DNA from: Acidobacteriota bacterium | GTDB lineage: Bacteria; Acidobacteriota; Terriglobia; Terriglobales; Acidobacteriaceae | Reading direction: 5' to 3' | Assembly: GCA_013289795.1 (NCBI GenBank) | Contig: JABCZH010000001.1 | Location: 465,768-529,767 of the forward strand | Length of the DNA: 64,000 bases | In this document: positions 3,034 through 23,778 of the stretch, in pieces | Numbering within the stretch: position 1 is the stretch's first letter | Layout of the letters: each line of letters starts with the position of its first letter | The notes under the pieces: generated by a model | Databases searched by the model: none | Told to the model about the DNA's origin: nothing | Seen by the model: only the letters and a program-made list of their open reading frames with translations | Program-made: the position numbers and the translations under genes

Positions 3034-3049
3034 TGTGCAATATTGCTCA
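3034..3049. promoter_or_regulatory. Crp-like palindrome, copy 1
   Basis: TGTGCAATATTGCTCA, a full match to the recurring consensus TGNNCAA-N2-TTGNNCA. It lies between the small ORF ending its 5' side at 2965 and the Sel1-repeat gene at 3464. Function as a regulator-binding site is inferred from recurrence and position. Confidence 0.6.
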
Positions 3050-3217
3050 CAAAAGTGTGGAGCCGCTATTGATCCTGTGAGGCACGCTCGGTCCTGCGCG
3101 GCGGCCCTCGCGCCATCTTTCCCAAGCCTGTTTTACGGACGCGACGATCTTATCCTGGCAGGTTTTCATCAACGGAGCTGGTGCCTCAATCGGACCGAGG
3201 CAGCCATGACCCAAAAC

Positions 3218-3233
3218 TGTCCACTTTTGAACA
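3218..3233. promoter_or_regulatory. Crp-like palindrome, copy 2
   Basis: TGTCCACTTTTGAACA, one mismatch to the consensus. It lies 230 nt upstream of the Sel1-repeat gene. Between the site and that gene I see no recognisable coding sequence. Confidence 0.5.
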
Positions 3234-3463
3234 GTATTCCGCCTTGATTTCCCTATAGTGTGATCCTTTCGCGAATCGCGTTAGGATCAGCGATTCAGGG
3301 ACGGTTTGCAGAAGAGTGATCCGGCGGGGAAAGCCTCAACAACAGAGCCCAGACAAGATCGCTTGTCGCGGGTATGAGTTTTTAGCTTGTTCTTTGTCCA
3401 CCACTCTTGTCGTCAAGGCGGTTTTGCAAGAGAGACCGATTCGCCAGTTGACACGAATTCCGC

Positions 3464-4708
3464 ATGAGCCGGGGACCCATCATCGATCCTTCATCGTTCG
3501 AGGGACTATTGGCCGCAGCTTTGGTTCTCCAGCGCTGGCGCGAACAGGAAGCACGCCACCACCGACCTGCCTCTGATGAAACGCGGGCCTGTCCACCCGC
3601 GATTGACGGAGAACCCCACTGCGCCGAGCACGATGAGATCAATGCGCGCCCCGCGGCCGCTTTGTGTGAATTGAGCGAAGCATCCGGGACGAGAGCCGAC
3701 CGAGATATGGCTCTGGAACGTGCAGCTGCGCTCGACCGCGCTGAACGGCTGAATTCCCCTCTGGAGAAGCATGGAGACCAGAAGCGATCTCCACGCGCGT
3801 CATCATTCACATTCCCGAAGACGGAGAAGGTTCTTGGTTGGAGACATGCGCGACTGTCGAGACGAATCGCTTCTGGGTTCCGGTCGGCGCAATCGCACAA
3901 ACTCGCCCTTCCTGGCGAGTACTTGCGTCAGGCGCAATCTACCTGGTTGAGTGCTTTTAGGAGTGCTAGACAAGAACTTCGTGGCGGTACCGATGCGATC
4001 CTCTCTGGACTTCCGAAACGAGCCTTGGGTCGAAGATTGCGACACACACCGCTATCGTTGTTGAAGGTCGCCGATGGCGCCAAGAACATGGCATCTTTCG
4101 TCAGATATGGAGTCAAGGCCTGGGTCACCTACGATTTCAAGTTCACACTAAGATTGCGTCGAGCGGTGACGAAAGCTGCGACGCCGCTCTTGGTGTTGCT
4201 AATCATAGTTGCATTCACGCTTACGCGAGTGTGGCCCCGCGGGCATCTTCTTACCGTGGCTGCAGTATCGAGAATGAACCATCCGTCGGGGAAGGACACA
4301 GTCAGGAAAGCGGTGGAACTCAGGCCGACCCCGCTGGACCAAGTCAGCCATATGCAGGTAACTGACCGGGTGGTTTTATCTGTCGTGGAGTCGTTGAGCC
4401 GATATGAAATCCCTGGGTTGCGCCGCCAGGCCGCCTACGGAGATGAGTCCGCGGCCTTCATTATGGGAATGCTCTATGAAACCGGACACCTTGTTCCTCA
4501 AAGTTGTACAAAAGCGGCCGCGTGGGTTACGGCGTCGGCAAGTGCGGGCAGCGCTGCCGCTCAGTACAACCTCGGACTGCGCTACCGGGACGGAGATGGA
4601 TTGCCTGCCGATGAGGATGAGGCAGAGAAGTGGTTGCGAAAAGCCGCTCACCGGCAGTATTCGAAGGCCACGTCGGCGCTGCAGCGACCACCGGCTATGT
4701 CACCGTGA
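3464..4708 (+). CDS. Membrane-anchored Sel1-like repeat protein
   Basis: 414 aa. Residues about 1-235 are Arg-rich and without recognisable domain. One membrane helix (TPLLVLLIIVAFTLTRVW) sits near residue 245. The C-terminal 100 residues carry Sel1-like repeats, with the typical pattern AAxGDxxAxFxMGxLYExG and AQYNLGLRYRDGDGLPxDxxEAExWLRKAA. Sel1 repeats are protein-interaction solenoids, often in signalling or envelope proteins. The repeats would lie on the side of the membrane after the helix. Start chosen as the first ATG; the Arg-rich N-terminus makes a later start possible. Upstream gap holds two copies of the palindrome. Confidence 0.65.
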   Translation: MSRGPIIDPSSFEGLLAAALVLQRWREQEARHHRPASDETRACPPAIDGEPHCAEHDEINARPAAALCELSEASGTRADRDMALERAAALDRAERLNSPLEKHGDQKRSPRASSFTFPKTEKVLGWRHARLSRRIASGFRSAQSHKLALPGEYLRQAQSTWLSAFRSARQELRGGTDAILSGLPKRALGRRLRHTPLSLLKVADGAKNMASFVRYGVKAWVTYDFKFTLRLRRAVTKAATPLLVLLIIVAFTLTRVWPRGHLLTVAAVSRMNHPSGKDTVRKAVELRPTPLDQVSHMQVTDRVVLSVVESLSRYEIPGLRRQAAYGDESAAFIMGMLYETGHLVPQSCTKAAAWVTASASAGSAAAQYNLGLRYRDGDGLPADEDEAEKWLRKAAHRQYSKATSALQRPPAMSP

Positions 4709-4914
4709 CACAGACCAGTTGCTGATGTTCCAGGGTTCGTTGCAAACTTCGATGACGTGCCCGTCGCTGCGCGAATTGGAAGAACTGCATATCGCCACCG
4801 TCTTGGACCGTTTGCCGTGGGCGTTTGACCTGTACTCCATTGCTCCGTCGAGCACGCGGAACGGGACATTGCTGGTCAGCGTCCCTCTGGGCGTAGTGCG
4901 TCCGAAAGTTGCAG

Positions 4915-5742
4915 CTAGGGAACTACAGCTTGCACCTGATTCGAGTAGGCGCTTTCAGCAAGGTCGGAATTCACCGCCGTGGAAACGTAATAGTAGGTAG
5001 TGCTGCTCAAGACGGTAGCATCGGTGTAGCTCGTGCCCGTCTGCGGAAACGAGGTGAGCCGCTGGTAAGGGCCGCCGGACCGAGTTCCACGATAGATGTT
5101 GTACCCGATCACTGAAGTCGTACTGGCATCCCAGGAAAGCCCAACTGTGTGCGCGCCTGTGTGGCCACCGCTACCGTCAAGAGTCTGAGCTACTGGAGAG
5201 GAGGATCCGTCATTGACGAATGAAACGCTGCCGGGACTGTCGCCCGCGACCTGTGGCGTGAACGTAACCATGTAGGTCACACTCTTTCCTGCCGCCACCA
5301 TAACCGGAAACGTGATTCCGCTGATGTTATAGCCCTGCCCACTCCAGGCTGCTGACGTGACATTGATATCAGAACTGCCGGCGGTCAGCGTGCCAGTCAG
5401 ATTGGCGCTGCCGCCCAAGGCCACAGCCCCAAAGTTCATGGTGCTCGGATCAACTGACAGCTGGCCGACCCTGGGCGACGGGTCCGGATTCTTCGGGTTC
5501 GGATTAGAGTCCGACGACACACCTGCGCATCCCGTCATCGCTATGCAGACGAGAACTGTGAGCAGACCGCACAAACTTCGGGACAGTCCAGACTCTGGGA
5601 ATCCATATCCTCCATCCCGGAAGGTCTGACATTTTAATCCGGGTTGATGGTGAACGTTTCCAGCGGGCCACGAACGGCGATGGCGAACTGAGATCCGAAA
5701 CAACGTGAACCTCTCTGGGTGACTGTGAGTGGGCGCCATCAT
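4915..5742 (-). CDS. Putative secreted lipoprotein with anchor-D-like Ig and fibronectin type III domains
   Basis: The mature part begins after a lipobox-like LVCIAMTGCAG, followed by an Asn/Pro-rich linker. Next comes an immunoglobulin-like domain of the choice-of-anchor-D (ASPM/Hydin-like) type with the hallmark VDPSTMNFGAVALGGS and a VTFTPQVAGDSPG strand, then a fibronectin III domain (VGLSWDASTTSVIGYNIYRG, ending YSNQVQAVVP). Such proteins are common surface proteins of Acidobacteriota. The start is uncertain: ATGs at 5742/5739 or 5799 give a long leader before the signal peptide, and a non-ATG start closer to the signal is possible. The 5799 start would overlap the GIY-YIG remnant. Confidence 0.65.
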   Translation of the reverse strand: MMAPTHSHPERFTLFRISVRHRRSWPAGNVHHQPGLKCQTFRDGGYGFPESGLSRSLCGLLTVLVCIAMTGCAGVSSDSNPNPKNPDPSPRVGQLSVDPSTMNFGAVALGGSANLTGTLTAGSSDINVTSAAWSGQGYNISGITFPVMVAAGKSVTYMVTFTPQVAGDSPGSVSFVNDGSSSPVAQTLDGSGGHTGAHTVGLSWDASTTSVIGYNIYRGTRSGGPYQRLTSFPQTGTSYTDATVLSSTTYYYVSTAVNSDLAESAYSNQVQAVVP

Positions 5743-5758
5743 AAACCTGTTTCCCGAA

Positions 5759-6483: not shown

Positions 6484-6500
6484 TGTGCAACTTTTGACCA
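6484..6500. promoter_or_regulatory. Crp-like palindrome, copy 3 (one base longer)
   Basis: TGTGCAACTTTTGACCA: both half-sites fit (TGTGCAA and TTGACCA) but the spacer is 3 instead of 2 nt, which may weaken dimer binding. It is located upstream of the GIY-YIG remnant, consistent with decay of a once regulated gene. Confidence 0.45.
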
Positions 6501-6773: not shown

Positions 6774-6789
6774 TGCTCAAAATTGCTCA
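6774..6789. promoter_or_regulatory. Crp-like palindrome, copy 4
   Basis: TGCTCAAAATTGCTCA, full match to the consensus. It lies just downstream of the response regulator gene stop (6846) on the minus strand, so it may serve an unrecognised transcript or the decayed gene beyond. Confidence 0.55.
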
Positions 6790-6845: not shown

Positions 6846-7253
6846 TCAGGCGCTGAGTCTGGCTCTTTCGGCAACTTTGGCGAGAACGTCATCGCAGATT
6901 CGGGTGAGCACGGGCACCAAAAGGCTGGGTGTTTCGTGCTTGGGAACGAAGGCATCGACGACATCCAACACGTGACTTGGTATCTCCTCGTCACTGGAGA
7001 CCATGACAATCGGCGTATTTGGCTTAAGGCGCTTTATTTCCAACGCAACTTCATGTCCGTTGAGCTCGGGCATATGGTAGTCGACGATCACGGCGGCAAC
7101 TCCGCGGTCTGCGGCAATCTGTAATCCTTGCCGGGCGGAGGAGGCAGTGAGCACGGCGTATCCGCGTTTTTCGAGCAATGCTTTTTGGTACTCCAGCACG
7201 CCGTCGTTATCGTCGATGCAAAGGATGGTCTTGGGTGTTGGGGGATTGGACAT
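6846..7253 (-). CDS. Single-domain response regulator (CheY-like)
   Basis: 135 aa, only a receiver domain. Acidic pocket ILCIDDNDG (residues 10-18), phospho-acceptor Asp58 in VIVDYHMPELNG, conserved Ser86/87 in MVSSDEE and Lys105 in FVPKHE. No output domain, so it probably acts by protein-protein contact or in a phosphorelay after phosphorylation by an unlinked kinase. It resembles the regulator at 11969-12376 in length, the shared DY-MPE-NG block and C-terminal layout, so the two look paralogous. A full palindrome copy lies 49 nt upstream of the ATG, matching the spacing at the paralog. Confidence 0.9.
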   Translation of the reverse strand: MSNPPTPKTILCIDDNDGVLEYQKALLEKRGYAVLTASSARQGLQIAADRGVAAVIVDYHMPELNGHEVALEIKRLKPNTPIVMVSSDEEIPSHVLDVVDAFVPKHETPSLLVPVLTRICDDVLAKVAERARLSA

Positions 7254-7302: not shown

Positions 7303-7318
7303 TGGTCAAAGTTGCACA
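7303..7318. promoter_or_regulatory. Crp-like palindrome, copy 5, before response regulator
   Basis: TGGTCAAAGTTGCACA, full consensus match, 49 nt upstream of the response regulator ATG at 7253. The sortase operon ends at 7361, so the site lies between that 3' end and the regulator start. Confidence 0.65.
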
Positions 7319-7360: not shown

Positions 7361-8002
7361 TCAGTTCTGGTGCGCACGCACCACGAACCGCCGGGGAGCC
7401 GGACCCACCAAATAAAATGGGTAACAGGTTACCAGCGTCAGTGCGGATTCGTTGGAGGGCGCCAAAACGCTGAGATCATCGGGGTCGACGATCTTGACCC
7501 AATCCACTTCATAGCGAAGCAGCGTGGTTGCAGTCTGAAGTTCGATTTCGTCCAAGGGGCGGATATCTTTTAAGTCGCGGAAGAAGGTATCGCGGTGGCC
7601 GGCGATGGCACTGTTGCCGGCTTCGCCGGGAAGTGGAGTGCCTTCGATGTGTCCGGCGCCGAGCCGCAGGGTTCGGGAGCTTGTGCCTTGCAGGATTGCA
7701 ACCGTCAAGCCCAAGCGCGGGATGTCCATGAGGCCGAGGACGTCGCCTTTCTTGACCACTGGCTTAGCTTCCGGCAAACACTCGCCGGTTGCACAAGCCG
7801 CAGGCAGCGGGGCGCTCGCGGTTGCCTTGTGCTGTTGGATCTGGGTCTGGAGCGACTGTTCCGCCGACGCCTGGTAGAGTCTGGCTTCGAGCAGCGTGCA
7901 GCCGACGTAAGCGAGCGCGAGGATGCCAATAATGAACAGCAGGCGTCGACTCCAACGAACGAAGCCGTGGGTACGCGCGGGGAGAATCAGCTTGAGCCTC
8001 AT
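7361..8002 (-). CDS. Class D-type sortase
   Basis: 213 aa. N-terminal membrane anchor at about residues 19-38, then a stalk and the sortase beta-barrel. The catalytic triad is present: His136 in AIAGHRDTFF, Cys193 in LVTCYPF and Arg204/205 in APRRFVV. Sortases cleave a sorting motif such as LPXTG/LPXTA on exported proteins and join it to an acceptor. The start ATG overlaps the stop of the VWA gene by 4 nt (7999-8002), so the two are translationally coupled. A candidate substrate with LPKTA is encoded in the same operon. The acceptor in a diderm cell is not evident. Confidence 0.88.
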   Translation of the reverse strand: MRLKLILPARTHGFVRWSRRLLFIIGILALAYVGCTLLEARLYQASAEQSLQTQIQQHKATASAPLPAACATGECLPEAKPVVKKGDVLGLMDIPRLGLTVAILQGTSSRTLRLGAGHIEGTPLPGEAGNSAIAGHRDTFFRDLKDIRPLDEIELQTATTLLRYEVDWVKIVDPDDLSVLAPSNESALTLVTCYPFYLVGPAPRRFVVRAHQN

Positions 8003-8991
8003 GGCCGATTCGCCTTGGCCGCGGGGGATGGAGATGCGGTAGGTGCGTAGTAACCGGTTCGGGTGCGAACCGACAAACGTCCGCGGCCTTGTCCGCTTGC
8101 CTTGACTTGTATGGCGCGATAAGTGCCGTCACGCTTTCGGTTGATGGGAATATACGCCAGGGTGTACTGATTGCGAATATCGTGTGCGATGCGTTCGCAG
8201 ACGGGAGCAAGATCTTTCAACGATTCCGGCAGGAAGGTTTCGCCGCCGGTGTCTTTCGCAAGCTGCTTGAGCACATGCGGATTGCGGTCTTCGTCTTGCT
8301 CGTCAAAAATGCCGATGGTGTAGATGATTGCGTCCGACTGGCGGGCCATGGCCATGATCTGTGGCAGCGTGTGTTTGCTGGTGTTGTCTCCCCCGTCGCT
8401 GATGACGATCAGGACTTTCTTGTCGCGATTGCCTCTCTTCAAATGCTCGAGCGCGGCGGCCACGGCATCGTAGAGTGCGGTCTGGCCATCGGCATTGGTT
8501 CTGGACAATGCAACCTCCAACTGCGCCACCTGGTCGGTGAACGGAATTGTGCCGGGAAGGCCAAACGAAACCCTTTCGTTGAAGTTGACCACGAACATCT
8601 GGTCCTGCGGGTTGCTGGAGCGGGCAAAGGCCAAAGCAGCGGCAATTACGTCGTGACGCTTCGGCCTCATACTTCCGCTGTTGTCGATGACCAGGCCGAC
8701 AGTGACCGGGATGTCGGCATGGCTGAAATGTTTGATGGGCTGAAGCATGCCGTCTTCATAGATCTGAAAGTCATCCTTTTCCAGCCCGGAGACCAGCGCA
8801 CCTTTGTGATCGAGGGCGGTTGCTTGCAGGACCACCATGTCTACATTTACGCCGATGGTGTAGTCGGCCGGTGAGGGATTTTGTGCCACGGAGGACTGGG
8901 CAAGGATCGGTAAAGCGAGGAATGGGAGTGCAAGCAGACATGGGAGCGCGGCTGCGAAAGTCTGCTGGTTTCGGAGCTTGTTCATTTCCAT
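7999..8991 (-). CDS. Secreted VWFA-related domain protein
   Basis: 330 aa from the ATG at 8991, which has GGGAG just upstream; an alternative ATG at 9084 would precede the signal peptide by an odd Arg-rich leader. Signal peptide (PCLLALPFLALPILAQ), an N-terminal beta segment (VNVDMVVLQATALDHKG, DFQIYEDG) and a von Willebrand A domain with MIDAS motif DNSGSM and conserved ISDGGDN. This layout matches the acidobacterial VWFA-related family. VWA domains bind metal and partner proteins outside the cytoplasm. Middle gene of the substrate-VWA-sortase operon; it has no obvious sorting tail itself. Confidence 0.88.
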   Translation of the reverse strand: MEMNKLRNQQTFAAALPCLLALPFLALPILAQSSVAQNPSPADYTIGVNVDMVVLQATALDHKGALVSGLEKDDFQIYEDGMLQPIKHFSHADIPVTVGLVIDNSGSMRPKRHDVIAAALAFARSSNPQDQMFVVNFNERVSFGLPGTIPFTDQVAQLEVALSRTNADGQTALYDAVAAALEHLKRGNRDKKVLIVISDGGDNTSKHTLPQIMAMARQSDAIIYTIGIFDEQDEDRNPHVLKQLAKDTGGETFLPESLKDLAPVCERIAHDIRNQYTLAYIPINRKRDGTYRAIQVKASGQGRGRLSVRTRTGYYAPTASPSPAAKANRP

Positions 8992-9103
8992 TGGCTCCCA
9001 CGGCCTGTGCCCTGAGCTTCGCACGCGGTTTCGCTCTGGGCCTGGTGAACGGAGGCGGCACCTGAGTACCACCTCCGTCGCCATGCGTTACCCGATCAAC
9101 TTA

Positions 9104-9778
9104 CTAGGTACGCTTTGCGGTGATGGAAAGCGCAAAGCCAGCGCCCAAGGCCAGCATCCCGATCAGGCCAATGAGGGGCAATGAGCTGGCGGTTTTCGGC
9201 AAGGGCTCGAGGGCAGCAACCACCGGCGGTGGTTCAACTACCTGCGCCACTTCCACTGGTTCTCCCGAAGGAGCAACCGCCTCGACCGGCGCGGTTTGCA
9301 GAGTTTCAACCGGGGCGGCTGCGATCTCGACTGGAGTTTCCAGAACGGGTTCATTTATTTCTTTGGCCAGTTCGAGGGCCCTGGGCTTGGCATATACAAA
9401 TTCCTCGCCCCAAACACGTCCGGGAGAGAACCATGCTCTCAGAGCTTCGGGCTGCCCTTCGGGACGCTCACTAAAAGTGATGACCGTCTTGTGGGTCGCC
9501 TTTAGACGTAAATTGGGCAGCGCCATGACCGTGGTGAGGACTTTGCTCTTGTCTTGGCTGTAGATGCGAACGATGTGACGGTTGCCCTGGTTCCACATTA
9601 TCTCGAAGATATAGGTACCGGCCGGCAAGACTTGAGGATAGGTGCCCGGAACTTCGACGGGTCCGCTGAAGGTGACAACTGTTTCCCTGTTCAACTCATC
9701 CGCCGTTACTGTCGGCACGACGAGGAGGCAGAGCGCGAAAAGGCAGAATACTGTTGCTAGGATCTTAAACGATTTCAT
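9104..9778 (-). CDS. Exported protein with C-terminal LPKTA sorting signal (sortase substrate)
   Basis: 224 aa. Signal peptide at residues 1-26, a compact beta-rich domain to about residue 140 (PAGTYIFEI, HIVRIYSQD, TVITFSERPEG), then a Val/Pro/Ala/Glu-rich spacer with repeated PVE motifs. The tail is LPKTA (193-197), a hydrophobic stretch (about 199-218) and a basic AKRT end, the three-part layout of a cell-wall sorting signal. It is first gene of the operon with the VWA protein and sortase, 112 nt upstream of the VWA start. LPXTA-type motifs fit class D sortases. RBS AGGAGA stands just before the ATG. Confidence 0.82.
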   Translation of the reverse strand: MKSFKILATVFCLFALCLLVVPTVTADELNRETVVTFSGPVEVPGTYPQVLPAGTYIFEIMWNQGNRHIVRIYSQDKSKVLTTVMALPNLRLKATHKTVITFSERPEGQPEALRAWFSPGRVWGEEFVYAKPRALELAKEINEPVLETPVEIAAAPVETLQTAPVEAVAPSGEPVEVAQVVEPPPVVAALEPLPKTASSLPLIGLIGMLALGAGFALSITAKRT

Positions 9779-9942: not shown

Positions 9943-9958
9943 TGGTCAATATTGACCT
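9943..9958. promoter_or_regulatory. Crp-like palindrome, copy 6, divergent promoter region
   Basis: TGGTCAATATTGACCT, one mismatch at the last base, but the inner 14 bases GGTCAATATTGACC are a perfect palindrome. It lies between the divergent sortase-substrate operon (start 9778) and the gene at 10053, so it could serve either. Confidence 0.55.
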
Positions 9959-11076: not shown

Positions 11077-11586
11077 CTAACGCCAGGGAATGTCGTAGCC
11101 TAAACCGTACAAAATGTGGTTCTCGAATTCGTACACAATAATGTAGTCCCATTCAGGCTCATGGTGCTCCCAGGAAGCCGCCACATTGGTGCTGTACCGG
11201 GACGGGCTCGAAAACGCCATCCCTACCCGCTGATCACAGGGTTGCGGGCAAACGATCATCCCAGTTGGAGACGGACGATCCACTCCGTAGACAATTAGCT
11301 GATCCGAGGTCAAATCCGGAACTACTCGAACTGTGATCATGCGGGGGTTGAACTTGAGAGCGCGGGCGTCACCGGGAAGCAAGTTCTCAGGAGTACCGTA
11401 AAGGCCATGTTGGACGGGATTGAGGTAGATCTGTTGGGAAAGATTCTGCTGCGCGTGATGCCACAACTGCAGGAGCTGAGCGTCGGAGTGAGTCGCAGTC
11501 TCATTTACAAAGCCAACCGGCCTGGTGGCACCGCAGCTTGTCAGCAAAGCTACGGATAGGAACACCGCCGCGCGGCAGACGACCAT
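11077..11586 (-). CDS. Putative lipoprotein, unknown function
   Basis: 169 aa from ATG 11586; an upstream ATG at 11631 adds a basic 15-residue leader. The chosen start gives a compact lipoprotein signal (MVVCRAAVFLSVALLTSC, lipobox LTSC at Cys18). The mature part is mixed alpha/beta with paired Cys in VCPQPCD and an aromatic C-terminus (EWDYIIVYEFENHILYGLG). I recognise no family. A palindrome copy lies 81 nt upstream of this start (36 nt from the longer start). Confidence 0.6.
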   Translation of the reverse strand: MVVCRAAVFLSVALLTSCGATRPVGFVNETATHSDAQLLQLWHHAQQNLSQQIYLNPVQHGLYGTPENLLPGDARALKFNPRMITVRVVPDLTSDQLIVYGVDRPSPTGMIVCPQPCDQRVGMAFSSPSRYSTNVAASWEHHEPEWDYIIVYEFENHILYGLGYDIPWR

Positions 11587-11667
11587 TTGATGCGTGATCC
11601 GCCGGTCACAGCAGAGTCTGACTCTCTTCATGGGTGGGGATGATATGACGTGGGCCTAGAGCACGGC

Positions 11668-11683
11668 TGGTCAAACTTGCACA
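11668..11683. promoter_or_regulatory. Crp-like palindrome, copy 7
   Basis: TGGTCAAACTTGCACA, full consensus match, upstream of the lipoprotein gene. It differs from the copy at 7303-7318 by a single spacer base. A lone half-site TGAGCAA follows at 11714. Confidence 0.62.
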
Positions 11684-11968: not shown

Positions 11969-12376
11969 TCATGCTTCACACGCTGGTTGAGGAACCCATC
12001 CGCCGTGCAATTGAGCGATCGCGGGCAATAACTGGCTGGCCAAACGGTCCTTGGCGATGAAAACGTCCACCAATTTCAAGGCTTGTTCAGGAATATCCAC
12101 GGTTGCGGAAAGCATAATGATGGGCGCTTGTGGATTCAGGCGCCTCATTTCGATGGCGACCTCCTGCCCGTTCATTTCGGGCATGAAGTAGTCAACGATC
12201 ACCACGTCAACTGGATACATCGAGGCCAGTTCGAGTCCCTTGCCGCCGCTGGCAGCGGTGAGAACGGTATAGCCGAAGCTCTCTAGGAAAGCCTTCTCGC
12301 ATTCGAGAACGTCCTTGTCGTCGTCGATGCACAGCAGCACTGCGCTTTGAAGTTCGGGATAAACCGATGATGACAT
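11969..12376 (-). CDS. Single-domain response regulator (CheY-like), second copy
   Basis: 135 aa receiver domain only. Acidic residues in LLCIDDDKD, phospho-acceptor Asp62 in VIVDYFMPEMNG, Ser90/Thr92 region in IIMLSATVD and Lys109 in FIAKD. Same length and strong resemblance to the regulator at 6846-7253. It heads a small unit with the downstream membrane protein. Two palindrome copies lie upstream, one of them 46 nt before the ATG. Confidence 0.9.
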   Translation of the reverse strand: MSSSVYPELQSAVLLCIDDDKDVLECEKAFLESFGYTVLTAASGGKGLELASMYPVDVVIVDYFMPEMNGQEVAIEMRRLNPQAPIIMLSATVDIPEQALKLVDVFIAKDRLASQLLPAIAQLHGGWVPQPACEA

Positions 12377-12422: not shown

Positions 12423-12438
12423 TGTTCAAAATTGCTCA
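12423..12438. promoter_or_regulatory. Crp-like palindrome, copy 8, before response regulator
   Basis: TGTTCAAAATTGCTCA, full consensus match, 46 nt upstream of the response regulator ATG, nearly the same distance as at the paralog (49 nt). Confidence 0.65.
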
Positions 12439-12494: not shown

Positions 12495-12510
12495 TGTGCA
12501 ATTTTGAACA
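12495..12510. promoter_or_regulatory. Crp-like palindrome, copy 9
   Basis: TGTGCAATTTTGAACA, full consensus match, 72 bp centre to centre from copy 8 (about seven helical turns), so two dimers could bind the same DNA face upstream of the response regulator. The rest of 12511-12749 shows no gene. Confidence 0.6.
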
Positions 12511-13215: not shown

Positions 13216-13989
13216 ATGCCCTCCCCAAGTCCTACCCTTATGGAAAACAAAGGCCTCCAAGTGGTGCAATCTGGCGAGCGGACGAATGCCGAGGGAAAGC
13301 CAGTCAGCAACCTGATCCTTCTCTCCACCTCGGACAGCGACTACAACTCGCTGCGTCCTCACCTCGAATATGTGAGCTTGACAAGCCATTTAATCCTTCA
13401 CGAGGGGGGTGGGAAGCTGGAATTTACCTACTTCCCGAATCAAGGTCTGATCTCTCTTGTGGTCGTCATGAAAGACGGAAAGACCGCCGAAGCCGGCATC
13501 GTCGGCAATGAGGGCTTCACCGGAACTCCGGCGGCGGTTGGCCTGAGCCGGAGCCCGCTGCAAGCCGTGGTACAAATCACGGGGGACGGGTTTCGGGTGG
13601 AGGTCGCAGCATTACAAAACACTTTGGAGTCCACTCCACAACTGCAGTTGATGTTGAGCCGCTACGCCGTAGTTCAGGGAATGCAGGTTGCTCAAACTGC
13701 CGCGTGTAATCGCCTGCACGATATTGCACAACGCCTTGCACGGTGGTTGCTGATGACCCAGGACCGCGTGGATTCGGAGTCGCTACCGATCACCCATGAT
13801 TTTCTCGCGACCATGCTGGGAACAGACCGGCCCAGCGTGAGCGTGGCAGCTGGTGCGCTGCAAAAGAAGAAAGTCATCGAGTACACGCGTGGCGCGGTAA
13901 AGATCGTGAACCGCAAGAAGCTTGAAGACTCCGCCTGTGAGTGCTACGGGATTACCCAGCAGTACAACGGCGAACTGGGATTGAAATAA
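13216..13989 (+). CDS. Crp/Fnr-family transcriptional regulator
   Basis: 257 aa. ATG 13216 is preferred over 13192 because GAGAGGG lies 7 nt before it. N-terminal cupin-like sensor domain (ILHEGGGKLEFTYFPNQG, AGIVGNEGF) without the Arg/Ser phosphate cassette typical of cAMP receptors, a long dimerisation helix (VVQGMQVAQTAACNRLHDIAQRL starts it) and a C-terminal winged HTH with ITHDFLATMLGTDRPSVSVAAG. The regulator probably binds a 16-bp palindrome as a dimer and is a candidate reader of the repeated sites nearby. No FeS Cys cluster is evident in the N-terminus. Single gene with its own terminator. Confidence 0.87.
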   Translation: MPSPSPTLMENKGLQVVQSGERTNAEGKPVSNLILLSTSDSDYNSLRPHLEYVSLTSHLILHEGGGKLEFTYFPNQGLISLVVVMKDGKTAEAGIVGNEGFTGTPAAVGLSRSPLQAVVQITGDGFRVEVAALQNTLESTPQLQLMLSRYAVVQGMQVAQTAACNRLHDIAQRLARWLLMTQDRVDSESLPITHDFLATMLGTDRPSVSVAAGALQKKKVIEYTRGAVKIVNRKKLEDSACECYGITQQYNGELGLK

Positions 13990-15839: not shown

Positions 15840-17243
15840 CTACGGATCATCGACGGTGTTGGCATCCAGTGTGACCGCACCATTACGGGCCAGCGCTCTG
15901 CCATGCAGCGTCGCGCCGGTATCCAGCGTGATCGATTGCAGAGACATGATGACCCCCTCAAAGATCGAGTTAGTCCCCAGCGTCGCCGAGCTGCCAACCT
16001 GCCAAAAGATGTTCTTGGATTGGGCGCCGCCGGCCAAGACGACCTGTGTACTTCCCAGCGTGGTCAGTGTGGACCCGATCTGGAAGATAAACACAGCATT
16101 GGCGTTGCCCTGGGCATCGAGCGTGACATTGCCGGCGGATAACATGACCGTGCTCGAGGTCTTGTACAGGCCAGGGGTGAACGTCAGCCCGCTCATATCT
16201 CCAGGCAGAACCGCGGCTCCGGGTAATCCGGCAGTGTAGGTATAGGCAGTGGTCAAGTCGAGTTGGGCCTGTGCCGCGGTAGCGTCAGCTACGTGCATGA
16301 CCGCCGGGGCAATGAGCGTTCCCGGAGGGAATCCGGTGACCGCTGTTCCCGGACTCAGTCCCAGGTCACCACCAGCGATGGTAGTCGGGCCGGTGTTTGT
16401 GACGGTGGAGCCGGCCAGGATTTTGAAGTTTCCAGCCGTCCCCAAAGGCACACCCGACGATTTGCAGGCGACCGTGGCAGTGGTGAAGGTCCATACGAAG
16501 TTACTTGCCAGTGGATTGCCCAACAGGTCTTCGGCTCCAGTAGTGATGGTCGCGGTATAGAGGGTGTTCAGCAGCAGATCAGCGGAGGGTGTGAAGGTCG
16601 CGACATGACTTGGCACATCGTAAGTGACTGCACCTGCGACAGGTGTCGTACCCGGACCGGTCAAGGTGAAGGTTGTTCCATTGATGGTGGAAGGAGTCAT
16701 GGCCTCACTGAAGGTGGCTACGACTATGGCGTTGGGGCATATCCCGTTGGAGCCGTTCGTTGGACCCTCGGAAATCACGGTAGGAGGGCCGGGCTGACAG
16801 GTTGAGGTTCCAGTGGTGAAGGTCCAAACAAAGTTACTCGCCAGCGCATTGCCAAATGCATCCTTGGCCCCAGTAGTAATTGTGGCTGTGAAGAGGGTGC
16901 TCACTGCGAGAGTGTTTGACGGCGTAAAGGACGCGGTCTTGCTTGCGGCATCGTAAGTCACTTTTCCGGGGACGGTAGCTGCGCCCGGGCCGGTCAAGGT
17001 AAAGGTTGTGGTATTGATGGTCGAAGGATTCATGGCCTCGCTGAAGGTGGCGGTGACAATGGAATTGGGACATGCACCGGCAGAGCCATTCGGAGGAGCT
17101 ACCGAAACAACCTTAGGCGGGGTCACACCTGGAATCGCGGCGGGGTTCTTGTCTGGATCGCTGCATCCGACGCCGACAATGAGCAACAGGAATAGTGCGG
17201 TGAACCAGATTTTATGAGGGTTGTATGTGCGCATGACCGTCAT
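15840..17243 (-). CDS. Lipoprotein with two Ig-like domains and a DUF3494 ice-binding domain
   Basis: 467 aa. Lipoprotein signal (FTALFLLLIVGVGCSD, Cys27). Two tandem SbsA/Big_5-type Ig domains, each with FSEAMxPSTIN and FVWTFTT hallmarks (residues about 45-150 and 150-260), then a DUF3494 beta-solenoid (FKILAGSTVTNTGPTTIAGG, LDAQGNANAVFIFQIGSTL, IFWQVGSSATLGTNSIFEG, GRALARNGAVTLDANTV). DUF3494 proteins are ice-binding or adhesive surface proteins. Divergent to a second DUF3494 gene at 17566, with two palindrome copies in between. RBS GGAGGAAGAAGG before the start. Confidence 0.9.
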   Translation of the reverse strand: MTVMRTYNPHKIWFTALFLLLIVGVGCSDPDKNPAAIPGVTPPKVVSVAPPNGSAGACPNSIVTATFSEAMNPSTINTTTFTLTGPGAATVPGKVTYDAASKTASFTPSNTLAVSTLFTATITTGAKDAFGNALASNFVWTFTTGTSTCQPGPPTVISEGPTNGSNGICPNAIVVATFSEAMTPSTINGTTFTLTGPGTTPVAGAVTYDVPSHVATFTPSADLLLNTLYTATITTGAEDLLGNPLASNFVWTFTTATVACKSSGVPLGTAGNFKILAGSTVTNTGPTTIAGGDLGLSPGTAVTGFPPGTLIAPAVMHVADATAAQAQLDLTTAYTYTAGLPGAAVLPGDMSGLTFTPGLYKTSSTVMLSAGNVTLDAQGNANAVFIFQIGSTLTTLGSTQVVLAGGAQSKNIFWQVGSSATLGTNSIFEGVIMSLQSITLDTGATLHGRALARNGAVTLDANTVDDP

Positions 17244-17337: not shown

Positions 17338-17353
17338 TGTTCACAATTGCTCA
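17338..17353. promoter_or_regulatory. Crp-like palindrome, copy 10
   Basis: TGTTCACAATTGCTCA, one mismatch. It lies 94 nt upstream of the 15840-17243 gene start on the minus strand. Confidence 0.5.
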
Positions 17354-17462: not shown

Positions 17463-17478
17463 TGGTCCATATTGAACA
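17463..17478. promoter_or_regulatory. Crp-like palindrome, copy 11
   Basis: TGGTCCATATTGAACA, one mismatch, 87 nt upstream of the ATG of the 17566 ice-binding gene. Confidence 0.52.
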
Positions 17479-17565: not shown

Positions 17566-18297
17566 ATGAAAGTACTTCCGATTTCTTTGGTGGTGATGTC
17601 GTTGATGGTAACGGGCGCTTTTGCGCAGACTAATATCAATCTTGGAACGGCGGACCAAGCTGCCCTAATGGGTGGCTCCGGCATAACCAACGTTAATGCA
17701 CAAACTTACATAATCGGAGATGTAGGCAGTTTTCCGACATGCACGGTAACTGGACTTACACAATCCCAAGTGAAGGGCCGCTTGTACACCAGCTGCAGTC
17801 CCGATACGGCTCAGGCGCAGAAGGATTTGACGGTGGCATACAACCAGGCGGCGGGTGCGCCGTGTGAAACCGACCTTACCGGCAAGGATCTTGGCGGAAT
17901 GACGCTCGGACCGGGAGTCTACTGTTTTTCGTCGTCAGCCGGCTTGACCGGCACTTTGACGTTGGACGCCCAGGGGAATCCCAATTCGCAGTGGATTTTC
18001 CAGATCGGCAGTAGTCTGACGACTGCCACCAACTCCGACGTGGCCATGGTCCTTGGGCAACCGCCGCTGCCGTGGAGCAAAGGTTTGAGGGGATGCAACG
18101 TGTACTGGCAGGTCGGTTCCTCAGCTACGATTGGGTCGGGCAGCACTTTTGTCGGAAAGATCCTGGCGCTTACGAGTATCACGCTGAACGGTGGCGTGCT
18201 TCGCGGCAAGGCTCTGGCCAGCAACGGTGCGGTCACGATGTCAGCCCAGGAGACGGTTGACGGTCCGCCTTGCGGTAAACCCCCGGTCGCGGACTGA
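17566..18297 (+). CDS. Secreted DUF3494 ice-binding-like protein
   Basis: 243 aa. Cleavable signal peptide (SLVVMSLMVTGAFAQ), then a single DUF3494 domain filling the protein: INLGTADQAALMGGSGITN, IIGDVGSFPT, GPGVYCFSSSAGLTGTLTLD, WIFQIGSSL, VYWQVGSSATIGSGSTFVG and KALASNGAVTMSAQETVD. Length is normal for the family. Unlike the neighbour at 15840 it has no lipid anchor or Ig modules, so it is probably released. RBS GGAAGGAAG before the ATG. Confidence 0.9.
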   Translation: MKVLPISLVVMSLMVTGAFAQTNINLGTADQAALMGGSGITNVNAQTYIIGDVGSFPTCTVTGLTQSQVKGRLYTSCSPDTAQAQKDLTVAYNQAAGAPCETDLTGKDLGGMTLGPGVYCFSSSAGLTGTLTLDAQGNPNSQWIFQIGSSLTTATNSDVAMVLGQPPLPWSKGLRGCNVYWQVGSSATIGSGSTFVGKILALTSITLNGGVLRGKALASNGAVTMSAQETVDGPPCGKPPVAD

Positions 18298-18807: not shown

Positions 18808-18823
18808 TGGTCGATATTGCTCA
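18808..18823. promoter_or_regulatory. Crp-like palindrome, copy 12, before KaiC operon
   Basis: TGGTCGATATTGCTCA, one mismatch. Located in the divergent gap between the small Cys protein (start 18784) and the KaiC-type gene (start 18925, 101 nt away). Confidence 0.52.
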
Positions 18824-18924: not shown

Positions 18925-20412
18925 ATGAGCCCTGCCAGGCCAAAAGTTGCCCACCGCTCGCTGGCCAAATCCCCCACAGGAATCCAAGGGCTGGATGAAG
19001 TCACGGGCGGAGGCTTGCCCAAAGGTCGGGTCACGCTGCTCTGTGGCAGTGCGGGGTGCGGCAAGAGCTTACTGGCGATGGAGTTCCTAGTGCACGGCGC
19101 GGTACGCTACGGCGAGCCTGGCGTGTGCATGGACTTCGAAGAGACCGAGGAGAAGCTGAGGGCCAACGTCGCATCGCTGGGGTTTGATTTGCGTGATCTC
19201 GCCAAACGCAAGAAACTGTTGGTGGATTACGTGGCCGTTGACCGACACAAGATTGCCGAGACGGGAGAATACAACCTTGAGGGTTTGTTCATTCGTTTGG
19301 GCCACGCCGTCAAAGCGATCAAAGCAAAGCGGGTTGTCCTGGACAGCATCGAAGCACTTTTTACAGGATTAACGGATTCAACGACACTGCGAGCGGAACT
19401 CCGCCGGCTGTTTCAGTGGCTGGAAGAACGCAGGCTTACCGCCGTCGTTACCGGCGAAGCGGGAGAGCACACGCTGACGCGCCACGGGTTGGAGGAATAT
19501 ATTGCCGATTGCGTGATCGCGCTGGACCACCGGGTAACGGAACAGATTTCCACGCGCCGTCTGCGAATCGTCAAGTACCGGGGTACTTCCCACGGCACCG
19601 ATGAGTATCCGTTCCTGATCGATCGTGAGGGCGTCTCGGTGGTGCCGCTCAGTTCCCTGGCACTTGCCCACAAAGCACTGACCGACCGCGTGTCAACCGG
19701 GATTCCGGCTTTGGACGGGATGATGGAAGGGAAGGGGTTCTTCCGTGGAAGCAGTGTGCTGGTGTCGGGGACGGCGGGAACTGGGAAGTCCAGCCTGGCG
19801 GCGAACTTCGCCAGCGCCGCCTGCGCTCGCGGCGAAGAGTGCCTGTATTTCGCTTTTGAAGAGTCTCCCAGCCAGATTCTCCGTAACATGCGCTCGGTTG
19901 GCCTCAATCTGGAGCGGTGGGTAAGGCAGCGCTTATTGCACTTCCACGCGATGCGGCCAACCAGTTCGGGCCTGGAAGGGCACTTAGCTACGATTCACAA
20001 AATGATCGCCAAGGTTCGACCAAGGGTAGTGGTCATCGACCCGATCACGAACCTGATATCGGCCTCGGGAACCTATGACGTTAAATCGATGCTCATGCGT
20101 CTGGTCGATTTTCTGAAGGTGGAACAGATCACGTCGATGTTCACGAATCTGACATTTGCAGGAGATCCTCATGAGGGAACGGCGGCGGGCGTCTCCTCCC
20201 TCATGGACGCCTGGATTGTATTGCGGGACAGTAAACCCAACGGAAGACCGAGACGCGAGCTTTACGTTCTGAAATCCCGCGGCATGGCGCATTCGCGCGA
20301 ACCTCGTGAGCTAATCGTGAGTCAGAGAGGCATCGAATTGGGTATCGTGCTGACGGACCACACGCTGGGCACGGCCGTCGCAGGTTCAAGCGTCGTCAGG
20401 TCCGCCAAGTAA
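18925..20412 (+). CDS. kaiC: KaiC-family double-domain ATPase
   Basis: 495 aa with two RecA-like domains. CI: Walker A GSAGCGKS (41-48), catalytic Glu72-Glu73 in DFEETEE. CII: Walker A GTAGTGKS (282-289), Glu312-Glu313 in FEESPSQ. By my alignment to cyanobacterial KaiC, the CII phosphosites T426/S431/T432 correspond to Thr419, Ser424 and Ser425 in GTAAGVSSLMDA, so autophosphorylation looks possible. Outside cyanobacteria such proteins act in stress or redox signalling rather than proven clocks. First gene of an operon with a KaiB-like protein, a histidine kinase and a LuxR-type regulator. Confidence 0.92.
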   Translation: MSPARPKVAHRSLAKSPTGIQGLDEVTGGGLPKGRVTLLCGSAGCGKSLLAMEFLVHGAVRYGEPGVCMDFEETEEKLRANVASLGFDLRDLAKRKKLLVDYVAVDRHKIAETGEYNLEGLFIRLGHAVKAIKAKRVVLDSIEALFTGLTDSTTLRAELRRLFQWLEERRLTAVVTGEAGEHTLTRHGLEEYIADCVIALDHRVTEQISTRRLRIVKYRGTSHGTDEYPFLIDREGVSVVPLSSLALAHKALTDRVSTGIPALDGMMEGKGFFRGSSVLVSGTAGTGKSSLAANFASAACARGEECLYFAFEESPSQILRNMRSVGLNLERWVRQRLLHFHAMRPTSSGLEGHLATIHKMIAKVRPRVVVIDPITNLISASGTYDVKSMLMRLVDFLKVEQITSMFTNLTFAGDPHEGTAAGVSSLMDAWIVLRDSKPNGRPRRELYVLKSRGMAHSREPRELIVSQRGIELGIVLTDHTLGTAVAGSSVVRSAK

Positions 20413-22115: not shown

Positions 22116-22116
22116 A

Positions 22117-22821
22117 ATGCCGGCGCGAAGGGACAAGATCAGAGTCATGATTGTGGATGATCACGCAATCCTCCGCGCAGGACTGAAAATGCTTGTCAAT
22201 GCCCAGCCCGATATGGAAGTTGTCTCGGAAGCTCCTGATGGGGAGAAGGCGGTTCAAGCAGCACGGGAAACGAGACCGGACGTGGCCTTGCTGGACCTCA
22301 CCATGCCTCGGGTTGGGGGCATGCAGGCACTGCAGCAGATGGCACGGAACTGTTGCGAAACCCGGGTGCTCGTCCTCACGATGCACGATGACCCTGCATA
22401 CTTGCGATCGGCACTGGCTGCCGGGGCCTCTGGCTACTTGTTGAAGAGGGCGGTGGATGCTGAACTGCTCGCCGCCATACGAGCGGTCCATCGCGGAGGG
22501 ACCTACGTGGACCCGCGTTTGGCCAACGTTCTCGTCCAGGACGTGCTGGCGAAGAGGGGTACAAGAGCTGCGCCCAAACGGCCCGTAAACATCCTTAGCG
22601 ACCGAGAGTTGCAGGTGCTTAGCCTCGTGGCGCGGGGTTACACCAGTGCACAAATAGCCCAACAGATTTTTGTGGGTGTGAAAACTGTCGAGACTTATCG
22701 TTCACGCTTTGCTGAGAAGCTCGGACTTCGGACGCGCAGCGACGTGATTCATTTCGCGGTGCGAATAGGTCTATTGACCCCAGAAACGCTTGAGAGTGAG
22801 CCGGGCCGCTCGGCTAGGTAA
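22117..22821 (+). CDS. NarL/FixJ-type response regulator with LuxR HTH
   Basis: 234 aa from ATG 22117, one base after the kinase stop; a longer frame from 22069 overlaps the kinase. Receiver domain with IVDDH (12-16), phospho-acceptor Asp60 in ALLDLTMP and Lys in GYLLKRAVD. The C-terminal LuxR HTH carries LSDRELQVLSLVARGYTSAQ and VKTVETYRSRFAEKLGL. It is the output of the KaiC-KaiB-kinase operon; targets are not visible. Confidence 0.92.
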   Translation: MPARRDKIRVMIVDDHAILRAGLKMLVNAQPDMEVVSEAPDGEKAVQAARETRPDVALLDLTMPRVGGMQALQQMARNCCETRVLVLTMHDDPAYLRSALAAGASGYLLKRAVDAELLAAIRAVHRGGTYVDPRLANVLVQDVLAKRGTRAAPKRPVNILSDRELQVLSLVARGYTSAQIAQQIFVGVKTVETYRSRFAEKLGLRTRSDVIHFAVRIGLLTPETLESEPGRSAR

Positions 22822-23034
22822 GAATTGTGTTTCACGCAGCATTTCTGCCCCGATAGGTAGTGCCCCTGCCCGCTCGTGTCAGGGTTTTCCCGGACAAAGC
22901 CCCTCATTATTAGGAGCATCCCCGATACCCCGCTTATTTCATCTGCAGCACACTACGTGCAGGCTGCAAAAGTGTAGCTTCCCCGCGAACCCAGGTCACA
23001 AGCTGGCAGACGGCGATCGGAGAACAAAACAATA

Positions 23035-23754
23035 GTGATGAAAACGACATTGAATGCCTCCTCCGCGACGCCAAATGCTGGAATTTCTGTGATTGGTATC
23101 AAGAAGTCGCGCATCGGCTTTGATGGTGAGGCTTTTCTCGCAAAAGCCGGGGTTGGCAAAACAGTGGTCAGTCTGAAAAAGAAGGAAGCCGCCTTTTCAC
23201 AAGGCGCCCCAGCTGACGCTGTCTTCTACATTCAGAAAGGCAAGGTTCAACTCACGGTCGTGTCCAAGATTGGCAAGGAAGCAACCTTGGGCATATTGAG
23301 CGAGGGAGAATTTTTCGGGGAAGGTGGCTTGGCTGGACAGCCTCTACGCATGGGGTCTGCTACTGCAATGACGGACTGCGAACTTCTACGGATTGACAAG
23401 AAGGAAATGATGCTAGCACTTCACCGGGAACACACGTTCTCGGATATGTTCGTAGCTTATTTGCTGGCACGGAACATTCGATACGAAGAGGATTTGGTTG
23501 ACCAACTCTTCAACTCCAGCGAAAAGAGGCTTGCTCGAATTCTGCTCTTGCTTGCCCATTTCGGCAAGGAGGGCGTGCCCGAAACTGTGATCCCCAAGAT
23601 CACTCAGGAGACCTTAGCAGACATGATAGGCACGACCCGGTCACGGGTCAGTTTTTTCATGAATAGGTTCAGAAAGTTGGGCTTCGTTCACTATGATGGC
23701 GGGAGCGGTCTGCAAGTTCATACCTCGCTTCTCAGTGTCATTCTCCACGACTAG
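23035..23754 (+). CDS. Crp/Fnr-family transcriptional regulator, second
   Basis: 239 aa; GTG at 23035 (ATG at 23038 in frame) with GGAG 12 nt upstream. Cyclic-nucleotide-binding fold (SQGAPADAVFYIQKGKVQL, GILSEGEFFGEGGLAGQ), dimer helix, and winged HTH with TQETLADMIGTTRSRVSFF as helix-turn-helix. The E-GE-GL block resembles the nucleotide pocket but the cAMP Arg cassette is replaced by LAGQPLRMG, so ligand is uncertain. A perfect palindrome copy lies 8 nt after its stop. It is a second candidate reader of the repeated sites. Confidence 0.88.
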   Translation: MMKTTLNASSATPNAGISVIGIKKSRIGFDGEAFLAKAGVGKTVVSLKKKEAAFSQGAPADAVFYIQKGKVQLTVVSKIGKEATLGILSEGEFFGEGGLAGQPLRMGSATAMTDCELLRIDKKEMMLALHREHTFSDMFVAYLLARNIRYEEDLVDQLFNSSEKRLARILLLLAHFGKEGVPETVIPKITQETLADMIGTTRSRVSFFMNRFRKLGFVHYDGGSGLQVHTSLLSVILHD

Positions 23755-23762
23755 GCGGTTTA

Positions 23763-23778
23763 TGAACAATATTGAACA
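23763..23778. promoter_or_regulatory. Crp-like palindrome, copy 13 (perfect)
   Basis: TGAACAATATTGAACA fits the consensus fully; all bases pair with their symmetric partner except the outer TGAA/GAACA positions 3-4. It lies between convergent genes, just after the second Crp/Fnr gene, so a promoter role is less clear than for other copies. Confidence 0.5.

Follow-up and report, generated by a model that had tools for sequence, protein, structure and literature searches.

The 16-bp palindrome that recurs in the intergenic gaps of this DNA is very probably the operator of one clade of Crp/Fnr regulators, here called family A and represented by the gene at 23035-23754, which would activate its own gene as well as stress and surface genes in a class II-like manner and travel together with its targets. 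Sequence statistics establish the motif itself, its association with family A, its preference for intergenic positions, its spacing to -10-like sequences and the recurrence of its target groups. The window, i.e. the whole stretch of 64,000 nucleotides that was analysed, corresponds to C1:465768-529767 of the host genome. What emerges is a regulator whose operator can be read, together with a prediction for the geometry of activation and a list of targets, and the regulon may be a natural example of one that moves as a unit. To our knowledge, gene regulation has been little mapped in Terriglobia, which are abundant soil bacteria.

The palindrome in the window and in the host genome

The original prediction listed 12 copies of TGNNCAA-N2-TTGNNCA with no or one mismatch, seven of them exact, and one further copy with a 3-nt spacer, and all of these were recovered (Table 1). 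At up to one mismatch the window has 18 matches, as compared to a mean of 1.71 in 100 shuffles (maximum 6). Six one-mismatch matches had not been listed, four in the first 24 kb (4495, 13715, 21832 and 23261) and two past it (34589 and 38672). That all copies lie outside genes and that none occur from 24 to 64 kb is true of the 12 listed sites and of all seven exact ones, but not of every one-mismatch match: five of the six additional matches (13715, 21832, 23261, 34589 and 38672) are inside genes of our stricter gene set, and in the laxer set 4495, too, is inside a gene, though a weakly called one. Genes were called with our own codon-score script and not with a standard annotator.

The host genome (4.67 Mb) contains 16 exact copies, as compared to one for the reversed pattern, and 255 copies at up to one mismatch, as compared to 76. 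Ten of the 16 exact copies are found in a cluster of 46.5 kb (C1:443045-489545), whose left end is about 23 kb outside the window and whose right half is inside it; a second, small site cluster is on contig C21. Scoring the host cluster with a matrix built from other genomes gave 34 matches, with none for the reversed matrix and a mean of 2.44 in Markov samples. Controls with shuffled or Markov-sampled sequence, with the pattern reversed or with a different spacer all failed to reproduce the signal. We regard the palindrome as confirmed and far above chance. The idea of a local regulon gains support from other genomes, but the sites are not confined to the window, given the 46.5-kb span and the small cluster on C21.

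The site-bearing stretch is gene-sparse, and its end is marked by an integrase remnant beside a tRNA-Ser gene. No exact match of more than 12 bases to the tRNA end, as a copy of an attachment site, was found elsewhere in C1:385001-529767, and integration is therefore not proven.

The regulator that accompanies the motif

Two Crp/Fnr regulators encoded in the window had been proposed as binders, and only one of them, 23035-23754, tracks the motif; the other, 13216-13989 (family C), does not. We also followed an FNR-like regulator encoded left of the window (family B). Around 78 family-A loci from 52 assemblies of Terriglobia, the motif word ranked first of 1024 palindromic words, with 67 copies as compared to 11 for the next word and a mean of 0.77. 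In 29 family-A neighbourhoods, one per genome and with the host excluded, 15 exact copies were found and none of the reversed pattern (42 and 2 at up to one mismatch). These two sets were both chosen by family A and partly overlap, as judged by contigs of identical length (e.g. L156 and G009:C52). The corresponding counts for 29 family-B neighbourhoods were no exact copy and, at up to one mismatch, 3 copies as compared to 2 reversed, and for 16 family-C neighbourhoods no exact copy and 2 as compared to 2, again without the host. The host loci left out were L029 (one exact site) and L059 (two) from these counts and L089 from the family-C count, from which L106-L117 were also dropped because they were weak matches, mostly to family-A genes. 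By these neighbourhood counts, families B and C are unsupported as binders outside the host genome.

For genome-wide counts a strict pattern, derived from family-A loci, was adopted because the loose pattern is noisy: relatives that lack close family A can have it frequently as well, e.g. G014 (13, control 4) and G017 (10, control 1). Among 60 relatives the strict pattern, with this origin in family-A loci, had a mean of 3.29 sites per genome in the 21 with close family A and of 0.47 in the 30 without it (Mann-Whitney p = 7e-8). Some genomes with close family A had no or one strict site, and G014 without it had three. In the reciprocal direction, based on 75 listed of 99 strict sites and with the host excluded, 17 of the 58 sites in family-A genomes were within 5 kb of family A, where about 0.3 were expected. 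The association has exceptions, as 33 of the 78 family-A loci were without an exact copy and 11 without a copy at up to one mismatch, and of the 81 family-A genes whose upstream stretch was complete, only 33 had a site at up to one mismatch within 300 bp upstream. The gene 23035-23754 itself has no matrix site upstream.

Families B and C and the LuxR-type response regulator 22117-22821 are all encoded in the host cluster, and an exact site with TACTAT at +30 precedes the host family-B gene by 147 bp, which would fit binding by one of these other regulators. We consider this very unlikely, not only from the neighbourhood counts above. In 48 motif-bearing loci, which had been picked by family A, homologs of the LuxR-type regulator were found in three, of family C in one and of family B in none, and the family-B genes entered had none of the 66 strict sites from other genomes (among the 75 listed of 99) at a distance of up to 10 kb. 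In addition, family B has an R-E-x-x-x-R helix, which we take to be the type that reads TGTGA-like sites.

The operator as refined from the copies is aaacTGNKCAWWWWTGMNCAgttt. A spacer of 2 accounted for 67 copies in the 78 family-A loci, and every other spacer from 0 to 8 for at most five. The half-site TGNNCAA had been drawn too rigidly at its end, as 140 of 160 single mismatches fall on half-site positions 6 and 7. That a repeated mobile element with the palindrome in it might have left these copies behind, as the integrase remnant and the repetition itself could hint, is negligible in probability and was rejected: the 67 distinct copies have only the operator in common, and their flanks are near background beyond roughly 4-6 bases per side. 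We propose that a family-A dimer would read TGNKCA in two successive major grooves, and the predicted target DNA of the 23035-23754 protein is TGTTCAAAATTGCTCA.

Promoter geometry and proposed targets

Of 271 sites in all, 252 were intergenic, although 64.5% of the sequence was called coding. Sites facing two genes were dropped for the test of -10 spacing, leaving 148 of 252 site-gene pairs. A -10-like TANNNT was found at +29 or +30 from the site centre in 30 of these 148 one-direction promoters, as compared to a background of 0.86 per offset (offsets 28-31 left out), and in the remaining 118 it was not. The enrichment persisted after removal of similar promoters (23 of 117) and without the host genome (26 of 135). 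By offset, there were 16 at +29 and 14 at +30; offset +31 had 5, and no other offset from 10 to 149 had more than 4. In class II activation by Crp, the site is centred at -41.5. One class of sites here would be placed likewise, as judged by the -10 spacing, and where the promoter-like sequence falls suggests activation from about -41.5. In such promoters the site centre would precede the start point by about 41.5 bases, with the site covering the -35 position, and family A would recruit RNA polymerase as Crp does at class II promoters.

The same overlap with the -35 hexamer would allow family A to bind the palindrome and mainly repress by covering this region, or to play both roles depending on position, and other sites lie upstream of genes by 100-300 bp, or 3' of them. 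Repression would be expected to scatter sites over the -35, the -10 and the start, whereas a single spacing stands out, and we regard it as improbable. A structural or partition-like role of the repeats (parS-like, or for a nucleoid protein) has in its favour that 16-bp palindromes are clustered in one 46 kb stretch and occur on islands and plasmids. It is nevertheless extremely unlikely, considering the preferred spacing to the -10-like sequence, the placement before recurring gene groups and the small site groups that adjoin family A on many contigs.

As an activator, family A would act on its own gene in many genomes, and also on a group of stress-type genes and genes of the cell surface. 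The target groups that recur across genomes are family A itself, response regulators (the second largest group), Ysc84 and small membrane proteins. Some target types here, CsbD among them, resemble those of the general stress regulons of sigma-B and EcfG/PhyR. The control that we propose differs from those regulons in that a DNA-binding activator would act through an operator specific to it.

Table 1. Candidate operators, proposed target genes and other features of the window. For operators, the number of mismatches, the matrix score, the position of the site centre relative to genes and any -10-like hexamer (offset from the site centre) are given.
Feature	Positions	Strand	Details
Operator	3034-3049	.	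Exact; 25.5; no called gene start within 400 bp, forward or reverse
Operator	3218-3233	.	1 mismatch; 24.9; no called gene start within 400 bp, forward or reverse
Doubtful site, 3-nt spacer	6484-6500	.	TGTGCAA-CTT-TTGACCA; spacer 3 has 0 exact copies in 78 relatives' loci
Operator	6774-6789	.	Exact; 25.1; 3' of 6846-7253; no called start within 400 bp, forward or reverse; no -10-like hexamer with at least 4 matches at +28 to +31, either direction
Receiver-only response regulator, proposed target	6846-7253	-	PF00072
Operator	7303-7318	.	Exact; 23.4; centre 58 bp before 6846-7253; GATGAT at +29 towards it
Sortase, proposed target run	7361-8002	-	PF04203; syntenic homolog within G015 site cluster
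VWA-domain protein, proposed target run	7999-9084	-	PF13519; syntenic homolog in G015
Surface-protein candidate, first of surface-protein/VWA/sortase run after site 9943	9104-9778	-	Syntenic homolog in G015; no Pfam match; weak NF053819 match, below cut-off
Operator	9943-9958	.	1 mismatch; 16.7; centre 173 bp before 9104-9778; GATACT at +29
Lipoprotein-like gene (by eye), proposed target	11077-11631	-	-10-like sequence at +30 of site 11668; no Pfam match
Operator	11668-11683	.	Exact; 17.8; TATCAT at +30 towards minus-strand lipoprotein-like gene
Receiver-only response regulator, proposed target	11969-12376	-	PF00072
Operator	12423-12438	.	Exact; 23.5; before 11969-12376; GAAAAT at +30 towards it
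Operator	12495-12510	.	Exact; 29.0; second site before 11969-12376
Family-C Crp-like regulator	13216-13989	+	0 exact copies around 16 homologs elsewhere
Ice-binding-like protein with Big_5 domains, proposed target	15840-17243	-	PF11999, PF13205; homolog in G015 cluster
Operator	17338-17353	.	1 mismatch; 28.5; centre 103 bp before 15840-17243
Operator	17463-17478	.	1 mismatch; 18.2; centre 95 bp before 17566-18297; TAGAGT at +30
Ice-binding-like protein, proposed target	17566-18297	+	PF11999
Operator	18808-18823	.	1 mismatch; 17.5; centre 109 bp before KaiC-like gene; TATGGT at +30 on other strand, but nothing -10-like at +28 to +31 in the direction of the gene
KaiC-like ATPase, possible target	18925-20412	+	PF06745
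Family-A Crp/Fnr regulator, proposed palindrome binder	23035-23754	+	PF00027, HTH_Crp_2; motif enriched around homologs elsewhere
Operator	23763-23778	.	Exact; 20.4; begins 9 bp after family-A stop, nearest site to this gene; no called start within 400 bp, forward or reverse
Tyrosine integrase, C-terminal remnant, right edge	24628-25143	+	PF00589, profile positions 91-168 of 172
tRNA-Ser (gct), beside integrase remnant	25173-25266	-

Relation to known regulators and possible spread

The 23035-23754 protein belongs to the Crp/Fnr superfamily, with matches to PF00027 (4.3e-19) and HTH_Crp_2 (8e-11), and thus has its fold family in common with E. coli-type Crp and its superfamily and HTH in common with the Fnr/FixK/Dnr group. 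It scores far below the NCBIfam cut-offs for the Crp equivalog (50.4 bits, cut-off 266) and the Fnr subfamily (18.4 bits, cut-off 228), and differs from Fnr also in the N-terminal cysteines that serve the Fe-S cluster, having no cysteine before residue 115. The Crp consensus is TGTGA-N6-TCACA and that of Fnr is TTGAT-N4-ATCAA. The reading of the palindrome as a Crp-type operator is supported by other genomes, and it shares with the E. coli Crp operator the half-site spacing and the outermost TG, but its core is TGNKCA-N4-TGMNCA; the Fnr operator is unlike it. A literature search by titles and the beginnings of abstracts, in a collection lacking most subscription papers and queried without the operator letters, gave no description of this operator among the matches listed.

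The predicted structure is fair for the HTH (blocks 64-88) and poor for the sensor (mean pLDDT 56), and places the recognition helix at residues 202-215. The best solved relatives by sequence (E ~1e-15) are PDB 3d0s, 3i54 and 3h3u, presumably M. tuberculosis CRP, whose recognition helix reads SRETVNKA as compared to TRSRVSFF here. Crp/Fnr proteins have a glutamate and an arginine in the phosphate cassette. The pocket residues E96 and R105 of 23035-23754, which are aligned with the pocket glutamate and arginine of solved CRP, were invariant in 23 sequences and at least 90% conserved in 35, and the conserved pocket may hold a nucleotide or a similar effector. The base-contact residues of Crp are given as R180, E181 and R185 in PMC12531629. 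In our alignment, with the E. coli numbering assigned by eye, the first is kept and the other two are replaced by S and F, respectively, which is in line with an operator in which only the TG of TGTGA is kept. R202 was invariant and S203 at least 90% conserved in 35 sequences, and F207 was variable in the wider set. Family A is a naturally occurring case in which a Crp-family recognition helix is without two of the three classic base contacts and seems to read a different core.

Elsewhere, alternative sigma factors do such stress work. Tentatively, and at somewhat less than even probability, we suggest that the family-A clade with its own operator code may run a portable regulon for stress survival and the cell surface, which would be passed between Acidobacteriota and Alphaproteobacteria in the form of islands and plasmids, with the targets accompanying their regulator, and would do sigma-factor-like work in Terriglobia. 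The host genome encodes three more family-A paralogs without internal stops (C1:444816, C1:446299 and C21:40919). On some methanotroph (Methylocapsa) and rhizobial (Bradyrhizobium) plasmids a site also lies near family A, although some of the loci tested had none: the matrix scan of eight plasmid loci gave no match in L196 (Granulicella) and L200 (Methylocystis) and one weak match in L203. The unbiased word count in three acidobacterial plasmid loci was a tie of 2, and the motif was present near family A at high score in three of five alphaproteobacterial plasmid loci.

Palindrome copies in the genome

All twelve listed copies of the Crp-type palindrome TGNNCAA-N2-TTGNNCA were found at their predicted positions, seven of them matching every one of the ten fixed bases. 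The 3-nt spacer of the site at 6484 was verified. With at most one mismatch the window holds 18 matches against a shuffle average of 1.71. The original prediction had placed the sites outside genes, with none from 24 to 64 kb, which does not hold for six unlisted matches (4495, 13715, 21832, 23261, 34589 and 38672): five are within genes of the stricter gene set, the one at 4495 falls in a weakly called gene of the laxer set, and the last two lie beyond 24 kb.

In the whole genome 16 exact copies were detected compared to 1 of the reversed pattern (255 and 76 with one mismatch allowed), and 10 of the 16 lie in C1:443045-489545. The local cluster is real, but as the window starts at C1:465768 only the right half of its 46.5 kb had been visible. 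The proposed regulon is also not confined to the window in that a small second cluster on C21 carries the same sites together with family-A (see below), Ysc84-like and lmo0937-like genes (names by eye), with a one-mismatch site near the latter two, 2.3 kb from the exact copy. A matrix scan of cluster and flank, with a matrix built on 148 sites of other genomes, showed the sites to be concentrated: 34 places in the 48 kb cluster scored at least 6, compared to 5 in the 96 kb of flanking sequence. The reversed cluster had none, and 50 Markov samples gave a mean of 2.44. The palindrome finding is sound and larger than first described. In one relative (G040), 9 of the 10 exact loose-pattern matches, on nine contigs, are TGGCCAAGCTTGGCCA, a repeat that is probably unrelated to the operator and inflates the loose counts.

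Features of the cluster and of the other contigs (bare coordinates are window positions)
Feature	Position	Remark
Family A regulator	23035-23754	
Family A regulator	C1:444816	
Family A regulator	C1:446299	
Family A regulator	C21:40919	other contig
Family B regulator	C1:463508	N-terminal cysteines by eye
Family C regulator	13216-13989	
Family C regulator	C1:447182	
Exact copy	C21:41813	upstream of another family-A gene
Exact copy	C3:195997	intergenic
Exact copy	C7:181450	intergenic
Exact copy	C1:389705	within gene
Exact copy	C8:77867	within gene
Exact copy	C25:21479	within gene
Second small cluster (L022)	C21:39542-41828	
-10-like GATGAT		faces response regulator at 7253
-10-like GATACT		faces 9778 gene
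-10-like TATCAT		faces lipoprotein-like gene
-10-like GAAAAT		faces response regulator at 12376
-10-like TAGAGT		faces ice-binding gene at 17566
Tyrosine integrase, C-terminal part only	24628-25143	right edge of candidate island
tRNA-Ser	25173-25266	right edge of candidate island
Broken family-A copy	C1:442852-443079	one TAG inside match; near cluster's left edge
GroEL-fragment protein, 218 aa	C1:460704-461360 (L020:4704-5360)	match to GroEL models limited to roughly positions 190-337

The proposed regulator of the palindrome

The Crp/Fnr proteins of the cluster are of three kinds, families A, B (FNR-like) and C (Crp-like). Sites were counted up to 1.5 kb away from a single homolog in each genome, with the genome under study excluded. 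Family A (29 loci) had 15 exact copies and 42 with at most one mismatch (reversed 0 and 2), family B (29 loci) 0 and 3 (0 and 2) and family C (16 loci) 0 and 2 (0 and 2). The excluded family-B locus has two exact sites. In a partly overlapping set of 78 family-A loci from named Terriglobia and Acidobacteriaceae (52 assemblies by accession prefix), 45 carried an exact copy, with 67 exact copies and 227 with at most one mismatch in total (reversed 1 and 20). TG..CAA ranked first (67) among 1024 palindromic words of the same form (next 11, mean 0.77), and spacers of 0, 1 and 3-8 gave at most 5 exact copies in these loci. The proposal of a Crp-type operator with a local regulon gains support from other genomes; the motif tracks family A there (67 of the 78 loci at up to one mismatch).

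The strict pattern TGNKCAWWWWTGMNCA, derived from family-A loci, occurred 99 times (reversed 7) in 61 genomes including the one studied, 90 of these in the 60 relatives. Relatives with a close family A (E ≤ 1e-75; n = 21) averaged 3.29 strict sites per genome, intermediate ones 0.78 (n = 9) and those without 0.47 (n = 30); at least two sites were found in 17/21 with versus 2/30 without. A reciprocal test, begun from the sites and covering 75 listed of the 99, placed 17 of 58 sites in other genomes with family A within 5 kb of a family-A gene compared to about 0.3 expected. None of 66 sites listed in other genomes was within 10 kb of an entered family-B gene. Among 81 loci, the 48 with an exact copy contained homologs of a LuxR-type regulator in 3 cases, of family C in 1 and of family B in 0.

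These partly overlapping comparisons point to family A as the palindrome's regulator. Two Crp/Fnr regulators had been named as candidates; 23035-23754 is favored by the motif around its homologs, and 13216-13989, of family C, found no support, exact copies being absent around the 16 homologs outside the genome. Family B found no support in its 29 outside loci or in the reciprocal result. Family A would form a clade of Crp/Fnr proteins whose operator is distinct and whose regulon is possibly portable.

Proposed operator, promoter geometry and target genes

The 67 distinct exact copies gave the symmetric consensus aaacTGNKCAWWWWTGMNCAgttt. In one-mismatch copies 140 of 160 changes were at positions 6 and 7. 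Each half-site is therefore firm in TG..C and looser at these two positions, which had first been taken as fixed. In an HMMER alignment family-A GTTRSRVSFF lies over GASRETVNKA of a solved CRP, which we take to be that of M. tuberculosis. A structure model put the recognition helix at residues 202-215, the confidence being fair for this part. Base contacts in E. coli are R180, E181 and R185, and such residues are largely conserved across the family, according to PMC12531629. With numbering transferred by eye, family A shares the arginine equivalent to R180 but has S and F at E181 and R185, and therefore looks like an exception to the conservation described in that paper.

Promoters were compared in 148 site-gene pairs whose site faces a single gene; our cluster and a relative, G015, contributed 17 of these pairs. 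Counted from the site centre, TANNNT started at +29 in 16 pairs, +30 in 14 and +31 in 5, compared to a mean of 0.86 and a maximum of 4 at other offsets from 10 to 149 (28-31 left out). The +29/+30 positions accounted for 23/117 pairs after removal of similar promoters and 26/135 without our genome. In class II activation the activator site is centred near -41.5. With a -10 at +29/+30, the centre of the palindrome would fall at about -41.5 or -42.5, which agrees with that position. We infer from this geometry that family A may activate. Window hexamers at +29/+30 that match TATAAT at 4/6 positions or more face the genes given in the Table, but they also occurred where that side lacks a called gene, at 12423 (forward) and 18808 (reverse). 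No such hexamer faces the KaiC gene.

For targets we used the 78 loci, our cluster and G015. The predicted position bias was borne out, with 252 of 271 sites intergenic versus 64.5% of sequence called coding. Genes with a site at most 350 bp upstream (n = 204) were grouped by similarity, each group name resting on one representative: the family-A regulators (50 genes from 44 loci, median 109 bp), response regulators (33 genes, 25 loci), Ysc84 (15), glycosyltransferase-like by eye (10), THIVI_2564 (10), lmo0937/DUF5670 (6), two further groups without clear name (6 each), CsbD, PRC-barrel, GroEL-fragment protein and zinc phospholipase C (2-3 each) and 33 singletons. A stress role of the regulon may be supposed. 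With a stricter limit of 300 bp, sites preceded 33/81 family-A and 138/567 other genes of the 78 loci. In G015, sortase, VWA and surface-protein genes syntenic with the window lie inside its own site cluster, and two family-A genes are preceded by sites. The exact site 23763-23778 starts 9 bp past the family-A stop, with no clear promoter there; a site within 150 bp 3' of the stop was found in 9/85 family-A genes.

Probable island and plasmid relatives

Coding fraction and GC were taken per 6 kb block for C1:439001-492999 and both flanks. The called coding fraction was 0.40-0.78, compared to 0.76-0.93 in the left and 0.65-0.99 in the right flank. GC in the left half (0.53-0.55) was clearly under the left flank (0.58-0.59), and in the right half (0.57) near the right flank's lower blocks (0.57-0.60). 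The stretch is likely, though not proven, an integrated and decayed island. The integrase remnant directly adjoins tRNA-Ser (24628-25266), bordering about 50 gene-sparse kb. No second copy of the tRNA region exceeding 12 exact bases was found in C1:385001-529767. The GroEL-fragment protein (Table) is a chaperonin piece standing alone, and a similar one is among the site-bearing genes of another locus, L174 (PF00118 below cut-off).

The best 8 of 56 plasmid records with a family-A relative were scanned for matrix scores of at least 10 within 10 kb of the family-A gene. Matches were obtained in Methylocapsa (3), two B. japonicum loci (4 and 3), Bradyrhizobium CB82 (1, weak) and two Acidisarcina loci (6 and 5), with 0 in Methylocystis and Granulicella; the reversed control gave 0 in 8/8. 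TG..CAA was again the top word in four alphaproteobacterial loci (7; next 3), and the three plasmid loci from acidobacteria gave it only a tie, at 2. Regulator and operator probably cross phyla as a pair, with little or no support for the pairing in 3/8 loci. In Methylocapsa one site, which starts 94 bp ahead of the family-A gene, lies between this gene and CsbD.
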